From assembly GCF_023703775.1 (NCBI RefSeq), contig NZ_CP098514.1, forward strand, positions 2,391,998 through 2,455,997: DNA of 64,000 bases. The letters run 5' to 3'. The DNA is from Haloplanus sp. GDY1 (GTDB taxonomy: Archaea > Halobacteriota > Halobacteria > Halobacteriales > Haloferacaceae). This document shows positions 12,990 through 27,319 of this stretch, in pieces (the first letter of the stretch is position 1; each line of letters starts with the position of its first letter). The translations under genes and the position numbers were made by a program. A model generated the notes under the pieces. It did not search any database. It saw nothing but the letters and a program-made list of their open reading frames with translations, and was not told where the DNA came from.

Positions 12990-13430
12990 CTACTCGCCGC
13001 CGAACTCGCTGCGGGCGTCGTCGAGTACCTCGCTGGCGTGCCCGCCCGGATCGGGAGCGTAGGTCGCCCGGACCTCGCCGTCCGCGATCAGGACGGTCCG
13101 CCGGTCGGCGTAGCCCAGGTCCGTCGAGACGCCGAAGGCCTCGGCCACCTCGCCCTCGGGGTCGGCGAGCAGGTCGAACGCCAGTCCCTCCGCCGCCGCG
13201 AACTCGGCGTGGCGCTCGACGTCGTCCATCGAGACGCCGTAGACCGTCACGCCGAGTTCGCCGAACGCCGACAGCGACTCCTGGAACTCGGATGCCTCGA
13301 CGGTACACCCCTTGGTGAAGTCCTCGGGGTAGAAGAAGACGACCGTCGGCTCCGAGAAGTCGGGTGTCACCGACTCGCCGTGCTGGTTGGGCGCCGAGAC
13401 GTCCGGGACCGGATCGCCGGGGTCGAGCAT
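12990..13430 (-). CDS. bcp: Bcp/AhpC-type peroxiredoxin
   Basis: 146 residues, full length for the BCP (PrxQ) class. The peroxidatic Cys lies in FFYPEDFTKGCTVEASEFQ (residue ~42), where the usual TPGCT motif is replaced by TKGCT. It reduces peroxides using thioredoxin-type donors in the cytoplasm. ATG 13430 is chosen because the fold starts at LDPGDPVPDVSAPN. A membrane protein gene lies 47 bases upstream in the same direction and an animal-type peroxidase further up, suggesting a local oxidative-stress theme. Confidence 0.9.
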   Translation of the reverse strand: MLDPGDPVPDVSAPNQHGESVTPDFSEPTVVFFYPEDFTKGCTVEASEFQESLSAFGELGVTVYGVSMDDVERHAEFAAAEGLAFDLLADPEGEVAEAFGVSTDLGYADRRTVLIADGEVRATYAPDPGGHASEVLDDARSEFGGE

Positions 13431-13477: not shown

Positions 13478-14392
13478 CTACCCCCGGATCGCCGCGAGCA
13501 ACAGCGCCGCACCGAGCAGGCCGACCGTCCCCAGCGCGTACGCGACGATCGACTCCCGTTCCCCCGCGAAGACGACGAAGGCGCCCGCCGCGCCCAGAAA
13601 GCAGAGCCCGAGACCGCCGAGGGCGATCCTGACCGCCCGGTCGAGCCCCCCATCCGGATGCCAGTCGCTCGTCCGGGCGACGGTGTCGAGGCCGTCCGCG
13701 ACCCGGTCGGCGGCGTCGACCGGCACGACCAGCAGGAGCGGCCGACCCCACCACCCCCGGCGCCGGTATCGCGGGACGAAGACGACGTAGTCGCCGACGC
13801 GGCGGCGGTGAACCCGCCGAAGCGGCGAGAGGTCGAACGTCCGCACCGACCGGTCGTCCGGGTCGGGGGCCGCCGTCGCGACGTACTCGGCGGCGGCCGC
13901 GCCGGTCACCAGCCGGAGCCGCGCCGTCTCCGGATCGAGCCGGCCCACCGTGTACCGCACGTCCACCGCCGCCCGGCAGACGGCGACGGCGACGGGGTAG
14001 GCGAGCAGGAGAGCGGGCTGGACCGCCAGCGGCAGGAACAGGAGCGCGGCGCCGAACAGGCCGATCGGCAGGTAGCGGAGCCGGAGCCACCCGGTCGACG
14101 GCAGCAGCGTCTCGCGTTCGCGCGCGGTCCCGTGTTCGGCCGACAGCAGGACGTACCACAGCGACGCCGGCCCCCCGACGAGGAGGAGCACCCCGACGAG
14201 GACGGCGATCCGCGCGTCCCCGCCGCCGACGCCCCGAACCACGAGGAGTCCGAGCAGCGCCAGCAGGCCCAGCGCGAAGAGCCCGGCGACGCCCGCCAGG
14301 AGGTGCCACACCGCGAGCCGGAAGCGGTCGGCGTCGCGGTCCGGATACGCTGCCCACGTAACGACGTGGCCGTCCTCGGCGTCGTCGGACAT
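13478..14392 (-). CDS. Haloarchaeal membrane protein of unknown function
   Basis: 304 residues with about six predicted helices in three pairs: WHLLAGVAGLFALGLLALLG with IAVLVGVLLLVGGPASLWYV near the N-terminus; GLFGAALLFLPLAVQPALLL in the middle; and IALGGLGLCFLGAAGAFVVF with ALGTVGLLGAALLLAAIRG at the end. A cytoplasmic or external domain (~residues 145-240) separates the last pair, with the pattern VRYTVGRLDPETARLRLVTG ... YVVFVPRYRRRGWWG. I do not recognise the family. It is encoded between the peroxidase and the peroxiredoxin on the same strand, 33 bases after the former. Confidence 0.7.
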   Translation of the reverse strand: MSDDAEDGHVVTWAAYPDRDADRFRLAVWHLLAGVAGLFALGLLALLGLLVVRGVGGGDARIAVLVGVLLLVGGPASLWYVLLSAEHGTARERETLLPSTGWLRLRYLPIGLFGAALLFLPLAVQPALLLAYPVAVAVCRAAVDVRYTVGRLDPETARLRLVTGAAAAEYVATAAPDPDDRSVRTFDLSPLRRVHRRRVGDYVVFVPRYRRRGWWGRPLLLVVPVDAADRVADGLDTVARTSDWHPDGGLDRAVRIALGGLGLCFLGAAGAFVVFAGERESIVAYALGTVGLLGAALLLAAIRG

Positions 14393-14425
14393 CGCCCGGC
14401 TATCCGGCGGGCGCCGCCAAGGCTC

Positions 14426-16390
14426 TTACCCCTCAGCGAACGCGCTCACCTCGCCCGTCGGCGTCCGGACGGTGACGGTCTCGCCGTCGTCGTCGATGGC
14501 GGCCGCGTCCCGGTCGAACGCGACCGTCCGCACGCCGGGGTCGCCCTCCGGCCCCTCGCCCGTGTAGACGACGAGCCGTTCGCCGGGGCGGAGGTCCGGC
14601 AGCGGCTCCAGCCCCTCGCCCGTTATCGTCCCGGTCTGCTCCTCGAAGTCGACCACGTAGCCGTCGACGGGCAGGTCCCCGCTCCCCGCGTGTTCGAGGA
14701 TCACCGCCTCGCCGTTCGTCGGGTCGCCGGCCGGCGTGTCCGGCGCCGACCCGGTGCCGTCGGCGTCCACCTCGTGGATCGTCAGCCCGTCCGGCGCCGG
14801 TCCCGTGGCGAACCGCAGGAGGTCGCCGAACCGGTACGGCGCCGCCCGCTCCGGTTCGTCGTCCGGAACCTCGGTCACCGCTCGCGGGAGGACCGGCCGC
14901 CAGTCCGGCGTCTCGTCGACGAACGGCCGCTCGTCGGCGTCGACCAGTCCGCGGATCACCTCGCCGACGATACGGCTGCCGACCGCGCCAAGCCGGTGAC
15001 CGTCGTTCTGCCGGTCGGCCTCCGCGAGGACGTACAGCCACGCCGGCGCCTCGGTGTCGGCGCCGCGGTGGACGTCGGTCAGGTAGTCGCCGAACGACCG
15101 GCCGCTCCCCAGGGGCAGGTCGTCGTTGGAGAGGGGGTCGACGTCCATCGCCCGCGCCAGCGCCTGCCCGGACGGCAGGCCGAGCGCCTTCCCGCGCCGG
15201 AGGTTCCGGGCCGCCAGCGACGCCGGCTCCTCGTCGACGAACGGGAGCAGGTGCAGCGCCGGCGGCAACTCCGCGTCGATTCTCGCCGCGGGCTGGGGCG
15301 ACTCGTCGGTCTCGGCTCCGTGGTCGAAGAAGTACGGCCACTCGACGACGAGGCGGTCCGGCACGGGCCGGAACCCGTCGAGGTGGTCGTCCGTCTCCGC
15401 CTCCATCACCCCCGGCGGGAGGTCCGGCCCCTCCGTCCCCGCCGCCATCTTCAGCGTCTTCTCCGGCGCCGGTCCCGGGAAGAACTGCACGTCCCCCGAG
15501 TCGCGGTTGACCGTGTAGGCGTCGCGGATCTGACTGTGGCCGTAGCGGTAGGCCGCGACGGCGAACTCCACGGGGATCGCCACGGGATCGTCCGGGTCGA
15601 GGAAGAACCGACGGCCGTGGGCGCGGACGTCGTCGAGGACCGTGTTGTCACACACCCGCGGGAGGAACTCGTGGAGCACGAGCCACTGGTAGTGCCAGCG
15701 GACGAGGCGCTGGGCCGCCCCGAAGGCGTCCTCCTCGTCCTCGATCAGGTCGTGCCCGTCGCCCGAGCGGACGTAGTCGACGACGCGGTTGTGGAACTTC
15801 AGGAACGTCAACAGCAACTGCGAGATGACCAGGTTCTCGTCGTTGCGCGGGTCGACGATGAGCGCGCTCCCCTGCCCGTTTCGCTGGAGGTCCGTGGCCC
15901 CGAACCGCGCCGCCCGCGTCGCCGACTCGTCGGCCGGGGACGCGCCCGCCGCCGGCCCGGTGAGGAGTTTGGCCTCGTGGGGGTCGTCGTCGTCGTAGAG
16001 GAAGGGCCGCACTTCCGACCCGGCGCCGTACATCGAATCCAGATCCAGCGCCGGCGTCCGAAAGTTCCGAAGCGCCTCCGGATCGTTCCGACGCTCCAGC
16101 GCCGACGTGGGATCGAACGTGATCTCGTGGTCGACGAACTGGCCGAAGAAGGCCACTCCCGAGGGCACGTCGGCGTCCGCCCTCGCCCCCGGCTCCCCGA
16201 GCATCGGCCCGACGAGTTCGTCCCCGTCGACCTCGTACTCGCCCAGCGCGTCCAGGAACGCGTCGTCCCGGACGTACGGGTCGAGGTGTGCGAACCGGTT
16301 CGCGAACCGGTGGCTCCTGACCCGCCCGCTCCTCGTCGTCGCCGCCTCGTTCAGTCCGCGGTGTTCCAGACTCCCGTGGTGCCTCTCCAT
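14426..16390 (-). CDS. Animal-type haem peroxidase with C-terminal lamin-tail-like domain
   Basis: 654 residues from ATG 16390 (a TATA-like TTTATC lies 26-31 bases upstream; a GTG at 16414 is the longer alternative). Hallmarks of the cyclooxygenase/myeloperoxidase superfamily are the distal Asp-His in FFGQFVDHEITFD (D87, H88), the Arg-Glu motif in DPRNDENLVISQ (R182, E185), HNRV, and the proximal His in YRYGHSQIR (H285). No signal peptide is evident. Residues ~560-654 look like a lamin-tail domain (GEAVILEHAGSGDLPVDGY, LRPGERLVVYTG, DDDGETVTVRTPTGE). It would oxidise halide or organic donors with peroxide. Rare in archaea and possibly acquired from bacteria. Confidence 0.85.
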   Translation of the reverse strand: MERHHGSLEHRGLNEAATTRSGRVRSHRFANRFAHLDPYVRDDAFLDALGEYEVDGDELVGPMLGEPGARADADVPSGVAFFGQFVDHEITFDPTSALERRNDPEALRNFRTPALDLDSMYGAGSEVRPFLYDDDDPHEAKLLTGPAAGASPADESATRAARFGATDLQRNGQGSALIVDPRNDENLVISQLLLTFLKFHNRVVDYVRSGDGHDLIEDEEDAFGAAQRLVRWHYQWLVLHEFLPRVCDNTVLDDVRAHGRRFFLDPDDPVAIPVEFAVAAYRYGHSQIRDAYTVNRDSGDVQFFPGPAPEKTLKMAAGTEGPDLPPGVMEAETDDHLDGFRPVPDRLVVEWPYFFDHGAETDESPQPAARIDAELPPALHLLPFVDEEPASLAARNLRRGKALGLPSGQALARAMDVDPLSNDDLPLGSGRSFGDYLTDVHRGADTEAPAWLYVLAEADRQNDGHRLGAVGSRIVGEVIRGLVDADERPFVDETPDWRPVLPRAVTEVPDDEPERAAPYRFGDLLRFATGPAPDGLTIHEVDADGTGSAPDTPAGDPTNGEAVILEHAGSGDLPVDGYVVDFEEQTGTITGEGLEPLPDLRPGERLVVYTGEGPEGDPGVRTVAFDRDAAAIDDDGETVTVRTPTGEVSAFAEG

Positions 16391-16415
16391 GTGGATCGAC
16401 AACAAATGGCTCACA

Positions 16416-16421
16416 GATAAA
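16416..16421 (-). promoter_or_regulatory. TATA-like element of the haem peroxidase gene
   Basis: Minus strand TTTATC in an AT-rich patch, 26-31 bases before ATG 16390. It supports a leaderless start at that codon rather than at GTG 16414. Confidence 0.55.
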
Positions 16422-16598
16422 TGTTAGCTATCGGAACATAGATCCGCAGTGACCACTTCCCGACCGCACGCGCCTCGTGGCGTCGCCGGGCGGCGAGCCG
16501 CGGATTCCGGTGCCGTCCGTCGATCGGCGCCGGATCGTCCCGCGGCCGACGCCCGCAGGTGACGAGCGCGTGTCGGCCGAAATACTGATGGTCAATTG

Positions 16599-16826
16599 TC
16601 ACTTTGGCGAGGGTGGTCGTCGGTCGGTGCGTAAGACCGCACGGCCGACGTCGCGATACAGCCAGTGGGTCGTCGCGTACACGCCGGCCAGTGCGTTGGG
16701 GAGGCGCTCGCGCTTCGGGACGCGGACGGGGAAGTCGCCGCTCCGGCGGCGGCGACGACGGAGACGGCGATACTCGCTCGTCCCCCCGGCTCTCGCCCCC
16801 ACGTTTTTGTCGGACGGCGACGCCAT
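16599..16826 (-). CDS. Possible small basic protein
   Basis: 75 codons from ATG 16826, divergent from the ParA-like gene with an 8-base gap. The C-terminal half (DFPVRVPKRERLPNALAGVY ... THWLYRDVGRAVLRTDR) reads like a real protein. The first half is a run of Arg that GC-rich non-coding DNA can produce by chance. A basic product would be unusual in a halophile. Without it, 16427-16834 is a gene-free spacer. Low certainty. Confidence 0.3.
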   Translation of the reverse strand: MASPSDKNVGARAGGTSEYRRLRRRRRRSGDFPVRVPKRERLPNALAGVYATTHWLYRDVGRAVLRTDRRPPSPK

Positions 16827-16834
16827 GCCGTCCC

Positions 16835-21773: not shown

Positions 21774-22055
21774 TCAGTCGAGGCGTTCGACGTCGAACGA
21801 GTCCGGCGCGTCCGGGGCGTGGTCCCCGATCCGGTCCCGCGCCTCGGCGCGCGAGGACGCGATCACGACCACGTCCTCGACCCCCTCGGCGCCCCGGCCG
21901 ACGTACGCCCCGAGGCCGCTCTCGTCGTCGAACTCCGTCGCGTAGGTCCGCAGGGTCGCGAGCACGCGCTCCTCGGTCGCCGCGAGGTCCGCCTCCCCCG
22001 ACTCGAACGCCCGCAGCGCCTCCTCGACGTTCCTGATCGCGGAGATGCGGTCCAT
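21774..22055 (-). CDS. Small acidic protein translationally coupled to mcm
   Basis: 93 residues. ATG 22055 shares one base with the mcm stop (TGATG), so its translation is probably coupled to the helicase. Predicted structure is two N-terminal helices (ISAIRNVEEALRAFESGEAD, EERVLATLRTYATEFDDE) followed by a strand-rich part with VVVIASSRAEARDRIGDH. No family was recognised. Its place after mcm points to a replication-related accessory role, as inference only. Confidence 0.72.
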   Translation of the reverse strand: MDRISAIRNVEEALRAFESGEADLAATEERVLATLRTYATEFDDESGLGAYVGRGAEGVEDVVVIASSRAEARDRIGDHAPDAPDSFDVERLD

Positions 22056-25000
22056 CAGACCACCTTGTACTGGTCGTTGCTGGGGCTGTACACGTCGCCC
22101 TTGCGGCGCAACTGCTCGATCTGATCCATCACCTTCTCCTCCTCGATGCCCTCCGCCTCCGCCCGCTCGACGATGGCGTCCAGCGGCGCGCCCGCCTCGC
22201 CCTCGTACTCGGCGTCGACCGTCTCGATCACGTCCTTGATGCTCTTGATGCGGTCGCGCTGGCTCTTGGAGGTGCCCGTCTCGATCACGTCGGCGTCGAA
22301 CTCGCCCGTCTCGGGGTCGACCCCGATGTCCTGCAGGCAGGAGCGGACGATCTCGATCACCCGCTCGGCGTCGTCCCGTTCGACCGTATCCGAGAGCCGC
22401 ACCCGGGCGCTCGCCTCCGCCAGACGCACCAGCGCCTCCAGCTTCCGGGCCGTGACCGGCACCGGGGCGTCCTCGTCGGCCCCCTTCGCCCGCAGGTCGA
22501 CGTAGAAGTCGCGGATGGCCTCCCTGGCCCCGTCGCTCATCGTCGGGAAACAGCTCCGTTTGGCGTACGCGATGTACTTCCGCAGGAGGTCGGGGTCGAT
22601 GGCCGGTTCGACCGTCTCGGTCACCGACTCCACCTCCGACTCGGTGTGGTCGGGGTTGGCCACCTCCGTCCGCTGGGTGTTCAACTCGCCCGCGTAGTTC
22701 GTGCGCAGGATGTGCTCGGCGAGGGCGGCGTCCTCGTCCGGATCGGGCTGGTCCGTCACCGTGAAGATGAGGTCGAACCGCGAGATCAGCGCGGGTTCGA
22801 GGTCGATCTGCTCGCCGATGGGTTCGTACTGGTCGAAGCGGCCGTACTTCGGGTTGGCGGCGCCGAGGAGGGAACACCGGGACTTGAGGGTGGCGTTGAT
22901 GCCGGCCTTGGAGATGGAGATGGAGTTGTGGAGCGCGACGCCCTGACTGACGAACGTGTTCGTCGGTTCGACGGTCACGTCGTAGACGTAGTCGCACGCG
23001 TACTCCCCTTCGTTGGGAACCGATTCTACCTCACTCACCCGGTAGTATCGGAGTTCACACCGCTCTTCGAGCGCGTCCAATCGCTTCGTGGCGTCGTCGA
23101 GTGCATTCGAGACGGCCTCCTGTGCCGCAGCCGTTAGTGTCGCCCGATGCTCGGTATCGTAGCCGCCACTCTCCGCGTAGTGGACGGCGCTCGTCGTCTC
23201 GCCGTCGAGTCGATCGGCGAGTTGTCGACCCGACCAGTCCACTGCCGCTCGCACGTCGCCGAGCGTTCCGGCCTCGTCGAGGGCGAACCGAACCGCTCGC
23301 ACCCGGTCACGAAGCGTCTCGACGTGCCGTTCGACCGTCTCGATCTGCACGCCGTAACCCTCGTCGAGATTCGATTTCAATTCGCCGGTGAGTTGGAGGC
23401 CGAGCAGCCGCCTGAGCGACCGAATCTCCGCCGCTGCGCTCGACGGCAACACGTCGTGGTGCCGCTTCGTCGCCTCGCTTCGCTCCGCGAACGCCCGTGC
23501 TTTCGCGGAGCGATCGTCAGCCGGTTCGACGACGGCGTCGACGAACTGCGCCGTCGAGTCGCCCATCACGTACGTCTTCCACGCATCCTCCGCCGCATCG
23601 TGGTGGATACGCGACGCCACGCCGATCTTCGCCAACGCGTCGGCGTAATCCTCGGCCAGACCCTCCGAGGCGGTCGAGAACGACATGGCTTCGCTCTCGA
23701 CACCGCCGTCCCCGGCGAACGCGCCGACGAGGAATCGGCGGATCGCCTCCTCCGAGGCGCCGAGTACCGCGGCCGGGATGCGTTTCCCTCGTGCGGTGTG
23801 CATCACCTCCGGGACGTTCGACTCGAACCAGCGGTAGAGTTTCCTCGAGATGTACTGCTGTGTCACCGTCCCGGCGGCGTTCGTCGTGTCGCTGCTCGTC
23901 ATCCCGAACACGTCACTCATCAGGCGCTCCATGCGATTCAGCAGCCGTTCGTCCTGATTCGAGAACCCGATTTCGTGGCTGCTGCCGGCGTACGAGTGCC
24001 CCTCCGCAACCAGCAAGCCGAGGATCTCCGCGAGGTCCGGCGTGAGTTCGTCGGGGAGTCCAACGTCTTTCTCCTTTCCGCGGTGTGGCTCCTCGTCCAG
24101 CGACACGCCGGCCGTCGAGTTCGGCAGTTTCCGCGGCGCGGGGACGAACGATCCTTCCTCGACGTCGCTCGCGTCGACCGTCGTCGTCTCGCCGTCCCGT
24201 TCGACGAACATCGGATGCTCGGGCGTGACGAGGACGCTCCGTCCGTTCGAGAACGTGACGCGGACGAACTCGTCGGGCGCCTCGTGCCGGCTCACCCGGT
24301 CGACCGGCTCTTTTCCGACATCGTTCGTCTCGAAATCCACCGAGTGGACGCCGACGTCGTCGACGGGCAGGATGTCGCAGTTCACGCCGTCGACCACGTC
24401 CTCGGGTCGGTCGGCCATCGCCTCGTCGACGAAGTCGCCGATTTCGACGCGCCGGCCGTCGGCGAGCAGGATTTCAGAACTCGGATGGTAGGACTGCTGT
24501 TCGAGCGCCTCGTGCATGGCCGACCTGTCCTCCGGCCGCATCTTGTCGAGTTCGTCCACGGCCGCGATCCCCTGATCGGCCAGCACCAAGGCCCCGGCTT
24601 CCAGACTCCACTGCTGTCCGTCGCCGAAGTCGTCGCGTACAGCCGCTGCGGTCAGGCCGGCCGAACTGGATCCCTTCCCGGAGGTGTAGACGGAGCGGGG
24701 GGCGATATTCCGGATATACGATAAGAGTTGTGAGTTGTGCGAGACGATGCCGTTGCCGAGGTACGTGTGCGTGCCGGCGACTTCGAGGTCGTACACCCAG
24801 TCGTAGTCGGGGTCGACTGTCTCGATCGATTCGATACGGTCCCACGAAACGTCGCTTTCGACGAGCTGCTGGAGTGCTCCGATCTCGTCTGCGACCGTCA
24901 TCGCTTCGTTGATCCGATCTCGGACTGCGTTCCGCGCGTCTTGGGTGACCCCTCCATCGGGTGTCACGACGTTCCGCTCGTAGTTGCTGATCGACTTTTG

Positions 25001-27319
25001 TGAAACGCCCGCTGCGTTTGCGAGTTCGTCCTGAGAGAGATTCAGCTCTCGACGAAGACGTTCGATGTCGCTCCAGTCCCCCCTCTCCAACTGTTCTCGC
25101 ATGTCGTTGAGCCACTCGAGTCTCGCTTCGAACTGGCCGAGGACCGTCCGAAGGTTCCTTCGACTCGGATTTCGATCGCCGCGTTCGTGGTGCTGGTACG
25201 TCGTCCGTGGGATGCCACAGTCAAACTGTGATAGTGCGAGTGCCTCGCGGATACGTCGGAGTGGTACGGAAACATCCGGAATGATGTCGGTATTCGTATT
25301 CTCGGAAACGTCCGCGAACGCGGTTGACGCGACCGTCTTTCGTTCGGTGACGAATCCGATCTCTTCGACGTAGCTGACGAAGTCGGTTCCGCTGATCCGA
25401 AGCCGGTAACTCCCGTTTTGACGACCTCCGAGCGAAGCCTCGATTCCGAGGCCGAGCAACAGACTGCGGACGCCTTCGAGTAACTCCCGGCTCATCGACG
25501 CTACGGTAATTTCGCGCTCCTTTCGTGAGACGTGCCCCTCACCTTCGACGTATGCCTTCAGGAATGCCTGTTTGATTGAGGGACTGGCGCGGAACAGACA
25601 ATCTGGAACGCGTTGATCAGCCGAGCGTTTCAGAATTGCCGGTTCGATTTCTCTGAGGAAGTCGACGAATTCGACCGAGGAACAGCCGATCATCTCGACG
25701 CCGTCTCGATCATGGTGTGGCTTGCGCCACCAGTGCAGACCGAGCAGATCGAGACAATCGGCGACGTCACTGAGGACCGCTTCGTCGGCGTTCGTAATTG
25801 TTGCTGTCGCGCTTGATGCGGGTCCAGTTACGTGTCCTTCTCCAATCTGATACCCGAGCAATCGGGCCAGTTCCGGGGACAATTTTTCGGGGGTGTCGAT
25901 TCGATTTGCCGGGCCACTTTTCACGCGATAATGATCGATATCGAGCGAGTCGTCCCACTCGCTATCGAGACGCCTCGGAAGTGCGATGAACCTCCCTTCG
26001 TTCAGTTCTTCGGCGTTCTGGGGCTCCATTCCGAGATTATTCCGAACGAACAGAGGGTGTGACGGCGTTACCTCCACCTCGCGACCGGATTTGGTGCGAA
26101 TGCGGTACATCCGCTCGGGCGCTTCCCGTTTCCACACCTTCGTCGCCTGTCCGACGGTGATGTTCCCGTCGGCAGTCACCGTCTGGACGGAGAAATCGAC
26201 CGGCTCGTACACTCCGTCGTCGACCGATACCGGATTTTCCAGCCGCGATTCGACGAGTTCTCCGAGCGTTCGCACCGTCCCGTCTCCGAGAACGATCTTG
26301 GTATCATGTTTCTGACATTTTCCCGTACCGGGATCACCGATCAACAGCATGTGCAGGTCCCCCCGGATCCGCGATCCGTCGGGGAGGTTCTTCGTCACCC
26401 CCGAGAACAACTGGAGGATCATCGCGAGTTTCTCCTGGTCGTAGCCGTAGATGGAGGGGGCCACGGAGGCGACCATCTCGTCGTAGATGTCGGGGTGGTT
26501 CGAGAGGTCGACGATGTCCTTCTTGTCCGCCTCGCTGATCTCCATCTCCTCGAACTGTTCGTCCTCGATCTGGACGCTCACCCCGTCCATGTAGAGGTCG
26601 AACAGCTGTGATTTCTCGTTGCCGTCGGTGACCTGCTCGATGTGGAGGACGCCGGTGACGGTGACGTGGTCGCCGGCGGTCACCTCGCCGGTGATGTCGT
26701 CCTCGATGTCGACGTCGATGCTCTGGGGCGTCTCGCCGCCGCGGAGGCCCTCCGGGCTCTCCTGTACCCGGAGCTTCTGGGAGTCGACGAACTCCGACTG
26801 GTCGTAGTTGACCCGGAAGGGGCCCTGTCGCTCGCAGCCCTGACACTCGTGGGGTTCCTGGAAGCCGCCGTCGGACTGGGGGATGTAGGTCATCGTGCCA
26901 CAGCGCTGGCACTCGAAGGCGGCCTCGGTGATCTTCGGCCGGACGTCGGTCGCCTTCCGGATGATGCCCGAGACGGCGATCATCCGGCCGACGTGGTTGT
27001 CGTGGACGCGGATGGAGCGGATGTCGACGGTGTCGGGGAGGTTCCGCAGGCGGACGTGGGCCTGGCCGAGGGAGACGTCCGCGGGCAGGTCGTACACGCG
27101 CAGGGCCTCCTCCGCGAACTCGCCGATCTGATCGGGCTGGGAGAGGAAGTCGTCGGCGAGGTCCTGATCGAACTGGTAGAGGTCGTCGTAGTCGACGTGC
27201 AGCGAGCGCTGTTCGTTGGGGTAGCGCTGTGCGAGGCGACTGATCTCGTCGCGGTAGTAGTTCCGATAGAAGCGAACGAACCGGTCGATCAACTCCTGGT
27301 TCTGCGACGACTGCGCCAT
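22055..27319 (-). CDS. mcm: Replicative DNA helicase MCM precursor with two inteins
   Basis: 1754-residue precursor; removing the inteins leaves 703 residues, normal for archaeal MCM. The extein has the N-terminal domain with a zinc motif (FECQRCGTM ... HECQGCERQG). The AAA+ core has Walker A GDPGTGK (residues 328-334), Walker B VLADQGIAAVDELDKM, sensor 1 in LLGAANPKYGRF and the arginine finger in ALISRFDLIF. A C-terminal winged-helix ends the protein. Intein 1 (residues 335-862) interrupts the P-loop before its Ser; intein 2 (943-1465) follows HEALEQQ. Both must splice for activity. Hexameric 3'-5' helicase at the replication fork. A TCTTAGG element ~27 bases upstream fits a leaderless start. 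It heads the mcm-minD gene run. Confidence 0.96.
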   Translation of the reverse strand: MAQSSQNQELIDRFVRFYRNYYRDEISRLAQRYPNEQRSLHVDYDDLYQFDQDLADDFLSQPDQIGEFAEEALRVYDLPADVSLGQAHVRLRNLPDTVDIRSIRVHDNHVGRMIAVSGIIRKATDVRPKITEAAFECQRCGTMTYIPQSDGGFQEPHECQGCERQGPFRVNYDQSEFVDSQKLRVQESPEGLRGGETPQSIDVDIEDDITGEVTAGDHVTVTGVLHIEQVTDGNEKSQLFDLYMDGVSVQIEDEQFEEMEISEADKKDIVDLSNHPDIYDEMVASVAPSIYGYDQEKLAMILQLFSGVTKNLPDGSRIRGDLHMLLIGDPGTGKCQKHDTKIVLGDGTVRTLGELVESRLENPVSVDDGVYEPVDFSVQTVTADGNITVGQATKVWKREAPERMYRIRTKSGREVEVTPSHPLFVRNNLGMEPQNAEELNEGRFIALPRRLDSEWDDSLDIDHYRVKSGPANRIDTPEKLSPELARLLGYQIGEGHVTGPASSATATITNADEAVLSDVADCLDLLGLHWWRKPHHDRDGVEMIGCSSVEFVDFLREIEPAILKRSADQRVPDCLFRASPSIKQAFLKAYVEGEGHVSRKEREITVASMSRELLEGVRSLLLGLGIEASLGGRQNGSYRLRISGTDFVSYVEEIGFVTERKTVASTAFADVSENTNTDIIPDVSVPLRRIREALALSQFDCGIPRTTYQHHERGDRNPSRRNLRTVLGQFEARLEWLNDMREQLERGDWSDIERLRRELNLSQDELANAAGVSQKSISNYERNVVTPDGGVTQDARNAVRDRINEAMTVADEIGALQQLVESDVSWDRIESIETVDPDYDWVYDLEVAGTHTYLGNGIVSHNSQLLSYIRNIAPRSVYTSGKGSSSAGLTAAAVRDDFGDGQQWSLEAGALVLADQGIAAVDELDKMRPEDRSAMHEALEQQSYHPSSEILLADGRRVEIGDFVDEAMADRPEDVVDGVNCDILPVDDVGVHSVDFETNDVGKEPVDRVSRHEAPDEFVRVTFSNGRSVLVTPEHPMFVERDGETTTVDASDVEEGSFVPAPRKLPNSTAGVSLDEEPHRGKEKDVGLPDELTPDLAEILGLLVAEGHSYAGSSHEIGFSNQDERLLNRMERLMSDVFGMTSSDTTNAAGTVTQQYISRKLYRWFESNVPEVMHTARGKRIPAAVLGASEEAIRRFLVGAFAGDGGVESEAMSFSTASEGLAEDYADALAKIGVASRIHHDAAEDAWKTYVMGDSTAQFVDAVVEPADDRSAKARAFAERSEATKRHHDVLPSSAAAEIRSLRRLLGLQLTGELKSNLDEGYGVQIETVERHVETLRDRVRAVRFALDEAGTLGDVRAAVDWSGRQLADRLDGETTSAVHYAESGGYDTEHRATLTAAAQEAVSNALDDATKRLDALEERCELRYYRVSEVESVPNEGEYACDYVYDVTVEPTNTFVSQGVALHNSISISKAGINATLKSRCSLLGAANPKYGRFDQYEPIGEQIDLEPALISRFDLIFTVTDQPDPDEDAALAEHILRTNYAGELNTQRTEVANPDHTESEVESVTETVEPAIDPDLLRKYIAYAKRSCFPTMSDGAREAIRDFYVDLRAKGADEDAPVPVTARKLEALVRLAEASARVRLSDTVERDDAERVIEIVRSCLQDIGVDPETGEFDADVIETGTSKSQRDRIKSIKDVIETVDAEYEGEAGAPLDAIVERAEAEGIEEEKVMDQIEQLRRKGDVYSPSNDQYKVV
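22925..24493 (-). mobile_element. MCM intein 2 (LAGLIDADG homing endonuclease)
   Basis: 523 residues (precursor 943-1465). It begins with Ser943 (SYHPSSEILLADG), has splicing block B TPEHP (H1035) and ends VALHN with Ser+1 in the extein (SISISKAG). Two dodecapeptide motifs, ILGLLVAEG (~1099-1106) and FLVGAFAGDGG (1195-1205), mark a LAGLIDADG endonuclease. A ~200-residue helical region follows before the splicing C-terminus. It inserts in the conserved helicase core, a typical site whose sequence the host cannot readily change. The catalytic acidic residues (E, D) are kept, so the nuclease may be active. Confidence 0.9.
24734..26317 (-). mobile_element. MCM intein 1 (LAGLIDADG endonuclease plus two HTH domains)
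   Basis: 528 residues (precursor 335-862), placed inside the Walker A motif between GDPGTGK and Ser863. It starts with Cys335 (CQKHDTKIVLGDG), has block B TPSHP (H421) and ends GIVSHN with N862. LAGLIDADG motifs are LLGYQIGEG (487-495) and FLKAYVEGEG (586-595). Unusually, two XRE-like helix-turn-helix segments lie between the endonuclease and the C-terminal splicing block: ~687-728 and ~750-800 (LNLSQDELANAAGVSQKSIS). The DNA is visibly less GC-rich than the exteins, suggesting a recent arrival. Confidence 0.92.

Follow-up and report, generated by a model that had tools for sequence, protein, structure and literature searches.

A protein that joins a haem peroxidase to a lamin-tail domain (LTD) is encoded in the window, the whole 64,000-nucleotide stretch of the Haloplanus sp. 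GDY1 genome analysed here. Its presence in a haloarchaeon raises the question of where the two domains came from, on which side of the membrane the protein would act and what it would oxidize. A first-pass annotation had described an animal-type peroxidase with the LTD at its C-terminus, had noted the absence of an obvious signal peptide, and had nevertheless taken the LTD to suggest anchoring at the cell surface.

The gene and its catalytic domain

The open reading frame (ORF) lies on the minus strand, and its coordinates agree with those of the first-pass annotation. The gene, its catalytic part and its putative promoter element are placed as follows.

14426 to 16390, minus strand: peroxidase-LTD gene, an ORF of 654 amino acids with its stop codon
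14813 to 16390, minus strand: catalytic haem-peroxidase domain, residues 1-526 (best PF03098 stretch 104-294), from Pfam, bacterial alignments and PDB fold matches
16415 to 16422, minus strand: putative TATA-like element ATTTATCT, with the ATG at 16390 about 28 nt downstream

A GTG at 16414 offers an alternative, longer start. The spacing between ATTTATCT and the ATG at 16390 would fit a leaderless start at this ATG rather than at the GTG.

The 654-residue protein matches PF03098 (An_peroxidase) with an E-value of 5.5e-16 and 58.7 bits, above the curated Pfam cut-off of 25, and bacterial homologues align with its residues ~1-528. A phmmer search of the PDB with the single protein gave zero matches, the NCBIfam scan gave no usable match for it, and no phage record matched. 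A PDB profile search built from 60 homologues found the cyanobacterial TDX16 peroxidase (8s6c; 2e-16), lactoperoxidase (LPO), myeloperoxidase (MPO), eosinophil peroxidase and DdPoxA. Similarly, an AlphaFold model of the whole protein (pLDDT 82; all domain structures are models without haem) matched 8s6c best in Foldseek, followed by LPO and MPO (prob 1.00), with DdPoxA also among the matches. Against the peroxidases, this full-length model reaches modest TM-scores (about 0.40-0.44, normalized by query length). Cyclooxygenase-2 (COX-2) and alpha-dioxygenases were matched as well, with the peroxidases scoring well above the oxygenases. By homology, the protein is a member of the peroxidase-cyclooxygenase superfamily.

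Active site and proposed mechanism

The residues proposed to build the haem pocket fall in five stretches of the gene.

16127 to 16141, minus strand: distal motif Q84-F-V-D87-H88, with Gln at the predicted halide site, Asp as a predicted haem-ester residue and His as the predicted distal His, from conservation and the motif definition in PMC4420034
16037 to 16057, minus strand: putative Ca2+ loop T112-P-A-L-D116-L-D118, in which T112, D116 and D118 are unchanged across the 22 haloarchaeal sequences
15836 to 15847, minus strand: R182-N-D-E185 (distal Arg and predicted second haem-ester Glu), from conservation and profile alignment
15536 to 15538, minus strand: proximal haem ligand H285 (context Y281-R282-Y283-G284-H285), from conservation and profile alignment
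15194 to 15205, minus strand: N396-L-R-R399, proximal (Asn predicted to hydrogen-bond the proximal His, plus Arg), from conservation, with NLxRxxxLGLP aligned to lactoperoxidases

The catalytic landmarks D87-H88, R182/E185 and H285 are present with the numbering given earlier. Together with Q84, N396 and R399, they do not vary in any of 22 haloarchaeal sequences; in a wider set of 60 from archaea and bacteria, each is either invariant or at least 90% conserved. The superfamily is recognized by the signatures GQxxDHD and RxxE and by a proximal His-Asn pair (PMC4420034). The first is found as GQFVDHE at residues 83-89, its last position being E89 in the window and Halolamina proteins and D in most others, and the second as R182-N-D-E185; H285 and N396 are both conserved, the hydrogen bond between them being predicted. 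The loop residues T112, D116 and D118 may be the counterpart of T168, D172 and S174 in MPO. The Met that forms the sulfonium link in MPO (Met243) corresponds to N186, which follows E185. R282, three residues before the proximal His, occupies what we take to be the position of the radical Tyr in the family 4 oxygenases (COX and alpha-dioxygenase); it is an Arg as in peroxidases and is invariant in the 60 sequences. An oxygenase function was rejected on the strength of this residue.

In the proposed mechanism, H2O2 would enter the distal pocket (Q84, H88 and R182) and convert the ferric haem to compound I, while H285, hydrogen-bonded to N396, would hold the haem. The haem would probably become ester-linked to D87 and E185 autocatalytically, a chemistry that has been described for the superfamily (PMC4420034; PMC5787809; PMC10204396). 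Compound I would then oxidize small reductants; chloride is a less likely donor than bromide, iodide, thiocyanate or phenolic and organic compounds, since N186 stands where MPO has the Met of its third haem bond. A chloride-oxidizing, MPO-like enzyme was judged unlikely on the same residue. LspPOX and DdPoxA do not oxidize chloride; the Rhodopirellula enzyme, which does so slowly, is a counter-example. For family 5, the ancestral bacterial one, a review of the superfamily calls the role 'completely unknown' (PMC4420034).

The lamin-tail domain

The second domain occupies nearly all of the remaining C-terminal sequence.

14447 to 14797, minus strand: LTD, residues 532-648, from Pfam, relatives, alignment and fold model

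The first-pass annotation placed an LTD at the C-terminus, and this position holds; its extent is about 120 residues, from ~532, rather than the ~95 stated. In the window protein itself the match to PF00932 (residues 532-648; E-value 6.5e-4, 20.5 bits) falls under the Pfam cut-off of 34.3 and alone would be doubtful. The relatives and the fold settle the identification. Pfam matched the LTD in 15 of the 15 fused proteins scanned (best E-value 5e-14), and two relatives exceed the cut-off, namely L007 of the Halorubrum type (53.0 bits, 5e-14) and L015 (36.8 bits, 5.6e-9). In an alignment with other LTD proteins, among them haloarchaeal staphylococcal-type nucleases (SNase-LTD), the window LTD shows 32-39% identity to theirs. 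Residues 527-654 were also modelled with AlphaFold, from an alignment that included five other haloarchaeal LTDs; the model has a pLDDT of 87, and its top 15 PDB matches in Foldseek are all mammalian lamin LTDs (E-values 3.9e-6 to 1.6e-4, prob 1.00). The whole-protein model likewise has a beta-rich C-terminal domain. The LTD is thus confirmed as a real fusion; chance resemblance is ruled out by the 15 of 15 fused proteins and the fold search. It is most likely a module for protein-protein or membrane/nucleoid docking, or for salt stability, with no part in catalysis.

Distribution and ancestry

Among 391 sampled Halobacteria genomes, the fused form is present over its length in 15 (about 4%, the window included) and the unfused form in seven. 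The rarity in archaea presumed by the first-pass annotation is borne out, as PF03098 was found in six of 393 genomes of the phylum, all six within the window's own order. 'Animal-type' peroxidase is a historical name. The label is apt as far as the PF03098 haem-peroxidase family is concerned, but the protein has its closest relatives in other haloarchaea, and bacteria come next, with homologues spanning Cyanobacteria, Pseudomonadota, Actinomycetota, Bacteroidota and others.

A tree of the catalytic domain from 90 sequences (IQ-TREE, LG+C20; root not inferred) unites all haloarchaeal peroxidases in a clade (100/97) nested among bacterial sequences. The fused proteins of the window, Halolamina, Halorubrum and a genome of another family (G300) form one clade (100/99), and the unfused haloarchaeal proteins form its sister clade (100/99). 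Within the fused clade, the closest partner of the window protein is Halolamina (100/95), and G300 joins the two next (100/97). A position of the catalytic domain among widespread haloarchaeal peroxidases that lack the fusion had been considered; the fused proteins instead form a supported clade of their own. This structure points to one LTD gain and to transfers between haloarchaeal lineages. The peroxidase would be of bacterial ancestry and acquired by haloarchaea through lateral transfer, the LTD having joined later in one lineage; as the tree carries no inferred root, the evidence for this direction of transfer is the nested position of the clade and its patchy occurrence. No bacterial donor could be named, the haloarchaeal clade being sister to a broad bacterial set. 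The LTD extension is absent from the Gemmatirosa and Salinibacter plasmid homologues, whose sequences were read.

The N-terminus varies as well. A transthyretin/CarboxypepD_reg-like domain of ~100 residues precedes the catalytic domain in the Halorubrum fused proteins and in the unfused haloarchaeal proteins, and is missing from the window, Halolamina and G300 proteins. Profile comparison with hhalign shows that these N-terminal domains are mutually homologous (E-values 2e-9 and 3e-9 when compared with the main unfused set) and that two Symploca peroxidases have a homologous N-terminus (3e-8). In the simplest history that we infer, the transthyretin-like domain was ancestral, the LTD was gained once, and the subclade of the window protein then lost its N-terminal domain. 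The family thus offers a natural experiment in which Ig-like additions are swapped on a bacterial-type peroxidase, a transthyretin-like one at one end and a lamin tail at the other. Another beta-rich addition, a beta/gamma-crystallin domain (PF00030, E-value 4.7e-8), precedes the peroxidase in a gammaproteobacterial homologue (L094).

Gene gain and loss at the locus

The peroxidase gene lies in a segment that is nearly empty in a congener.

14393 to 16834, no strand assigned: extra 2.44 kb separating a ParA-like gene from MP304; G280, of the same genus, has 146 bp in this interval
13478 to 14392, minus strand: MP304, a conserved protein of 304 amino acids with hydrophobic segments and no Pfam family, 33 bp downstream of the peroxidase
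12990 to 13430, minus strand: peroxiredoxin (AhpC/TSA family) after MP304, kept in G280, G080 and G716

Two genomes of the genus (G280 and G080) have the gene order of the window (MCM, ParA-like, TFB-like, HTH, ParA-like, MP304, peroxiredoxin and Fe-ADH), and the peroxidase is absent from both. In a third genome of the genus, G716, the MP304-peroxiredoxin block is preceded by the last 131 residues of the peroxidase (73% identity). There an AbiEi antitoxin domain stands in frame with the LTD end, directly upstream of the block (L135:967-1896; same region in L156), and window synteny is lost beyond the AbiEi side, as if a rearrangement had broken the peroxidase gene. Two haloarchaea of different families (L024 in G037 and L025 in G339) encode short in-frame proteins that consist of the transthyretin-like domain and the last ~130 residues of the peroxidase; the whole haem pocket is deleted in frame, with differing breakpoints. 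The empty sites and the deletions of the catalytic part in G716, G037 and G339 indicate that the gene is mobile and dispensable. By these comparisons it is a recent arrival in the genus, of which two further genomes (G289 and G719) carry the unfused type. All pairs tested gave dN/dS values of 0.09-0.48, in the catalytic domain and LTD alike, and both domains are apparently under purifying selection.

No conserved operon was found, as neighbours within ~8 kb are not common to the window, Halolamina, Halorubrum and unfused loci, save for scattered distant matches. MP304 was matched in eight of 12 genomes of the genus, and the peroxiredoxin follows it in G280, G080 and one of the two G716 copies, though not in L157 or L158. 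Elsewhere in the window, an MCM helicase ORF of 1754 amino acids (22055-27319) appears to hold two inteins.

Cellular location

The absence of an obvious signal peptide is confirmed. Neither N-terminal hydropathy nor the sequence itself revealed a signal peptide, lipobox or transmembrane (TM) segment in the window protein, whose highest 17-residue Kyte-Doolittle mean over the first 60 residues is 0.18. The corresponding N-terminal mean never exceeds 0.48 in the fused relatives, and no export signal was found in any of those examined, including the Halorubrum forms with the N-terminal domain counted. The unfused haloarchaeal peroxidases have no evident signal either, nor do the bacterial homologues among the matches listed, which start directly at the domain. 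Surface anchoring, which the LTD had been taken to suggest, is unsupported because no fused relative examined has a signal peptide, lipobox or TM segment. A cytoplasmic location is predicted for the window protein, although non-classical export of the peroxidase-LTD protein may occur.

A cytosolic LTD would be unusual, since LTDs elsewhere in haloarchaea are mostly found on exported proteins. The SNase-LTD nucleases mostly have signal, lipobox or TM-type N-termini, and one of them, which has hydrophobic segments at its N-terminus, is the sole other LTD protein found in the window genome. Lipoboxes have been reported on the haloarchaeal LTD hydrolases Hlac_1867 and Hvo_1477 (PMC5118699). As far as sequence can tell, the LTD here is not a mark of a surface protein, and the peroxidase-LTD case weakens the habit of reading the domain as one.

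Proposed function and alternatives

The account that we consider likely is that of a laterally acquired PF03098 peroxidase of bacterial ancestry, later fused to an LTD, which would act in the cytosol as an H2O2-dependent enzyme with ester-linked haem and would rely on the LTD to dock it or to keep it stable. The sequence, the fusion, the conserved haem pocket and the predicted fold, the clades of the tree, the arrival of the gene within the genus and the missing signal peptide are observations; that the protein binds and links haem, its activity and substrate, where it resides and what the LTD does are predictions. Haloarchaea keep molar KCl inside the cell, and a cytosolic member of a halide-oxidizing superfamily therefore raises a direct, testable question of substrate choice at such concentrations. 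In a bolder version, the LTD would dock an oxidant-producing peroxidase on the membrane or nucleoid, giving a confined intracellular archaeal enzyme that oxidizes halide in a molar-chloride cytosol, which we hold to be quite unlikely. Slightly less probable still is an exported peroxidase that the LTD would fix to the surface, where hypohalous acids would be directed against competitors. Most other LTD proteins of haloarchaea are exported or bound to membranes, and characterized relatives such as DdPoxA are secreted, but the fused proteins examined have no signal peptide, lipobox or TM segment, and neither the unfused haloarchaeal ones nor the listed bacterial homologues have an evident signal.

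Of the alternatives, antioxidant housekeeping is the most probable, though it too is unlikely. Here the enzyme would scavenge H2O2 with the adjacent peroxiredoxin, and peroxidase, MP304 and peroxiredoxin would form a small oxidative-stress operon, as their common strand, the 33-bp gap to MP304 and the nearness of ccdA and a thioredoxin-like gene, both of that strand, might suggest. However, the MP304-peroxiredoxin pair pre-dates the peroxidase, being present without it in G280 and G080. The peroxiredoxin was there before the peroxidase, so its adjacency is no evidence of a common pathway. The Halolamina and G300 loci, moreover, share no homologous neighbour with the window, Halorubrum shares only a distant MOSC-type gene, and the window genome already has a KatG-type gene. 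The patchy distribution, the empty sites in the genus and the catalytic deletions in three genomes could also mean that the gene is degenerate cargo passing through with no selected role in the strain; the intact ORF, the invariant active site and the dN/dS values for both domains make this improbable. Least probable is a lipid oxygenase of the alpha-dioxygenase or cyclooxygenase kind, acting on fatty acids or membrane lipids with the LTD for membrane association. Such enzymes belong to the same superfamily and appear among the Foldseek matches, but R282 stands at the radical-Tyr position, both haem-ester acids are present and the peroxidases score far better.

Comparison with known systems

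The closest counterparts of the window's peroxidase-LTD protein are those of Halolamina pelagica (L003/L032; 68% identity, 67% in tblastn) and a congener (L004 in G074; 66%). They have the same two-domain architecture without an N-terminal extra domain, at a different genomic site that adjoins an aldehyde-dehydrogenase-like gene; no published study of them was found. The Halorubrum proteins (L006-L016) belong to the same catalytic-domain and LTD clade at 49-51% identity (47-48% in tblastn) and differ by their additional N-terminal domain. The unfused haloarchaeal peroxidases (L017-L023 and L131-L134; 46-48% identity) have the same active site, with the transthyretin-like domain instead of an LTD. 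The bacterial 'heme peroxidase family protein' group (Symploca, Nitrosomonas, Mumia, Sinorhizobium and Salinibacter) shows the same active-site pattern at roughly 33-46% identity (34-43% in tblastn); those examined have no LTD and no evident signal peptide, and only Symploca has the transthyretin-like N-terminal domain.

Among more distant enzymes, TDX16 peroxidase (8s6c), LspPOX, LPO, MPO and DdPoxA share the superfamily fold and the distal and proximal residues, and their ester-linked haem chemistry is known. Structure-aligned identity to the window protein is 14-17%, none of them has an LTD, and DdPoxA is secreted whereas the window protein has no export signal. Conversely, haloarchaeal SNase-LTD and metallo-beta-lactamase-LTD proteins of the Hvo_1477 and Hlac_1867 type have the same C-terminal LTD, with a nuclease or hydrolase partner in place of the peroxidase, and are mostly exported or lipobox-bearing.

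No description of the peroxidase-LTD combination was found in the literature searched, most subscription journals being outside its reach. The combination appears undescribed, although both domains and the route by which bacterial genes become haloarchaeal chimeras were already known (PMC5992828). In the chimeric composite (ChiC) genes of haloarchaea, a bacterial domain has been recombined with another domain in haloarchaea (PMC5992828). The haem-peroxidase ChiC family HVO_1871 is chlorite-dismutase-like and has a fold different from that of the window protein (PMC5992828). The peroxidase-LTD gene, with its clade among bacteria and an LTD added once, represents the same kind of event as the ChiC genes.
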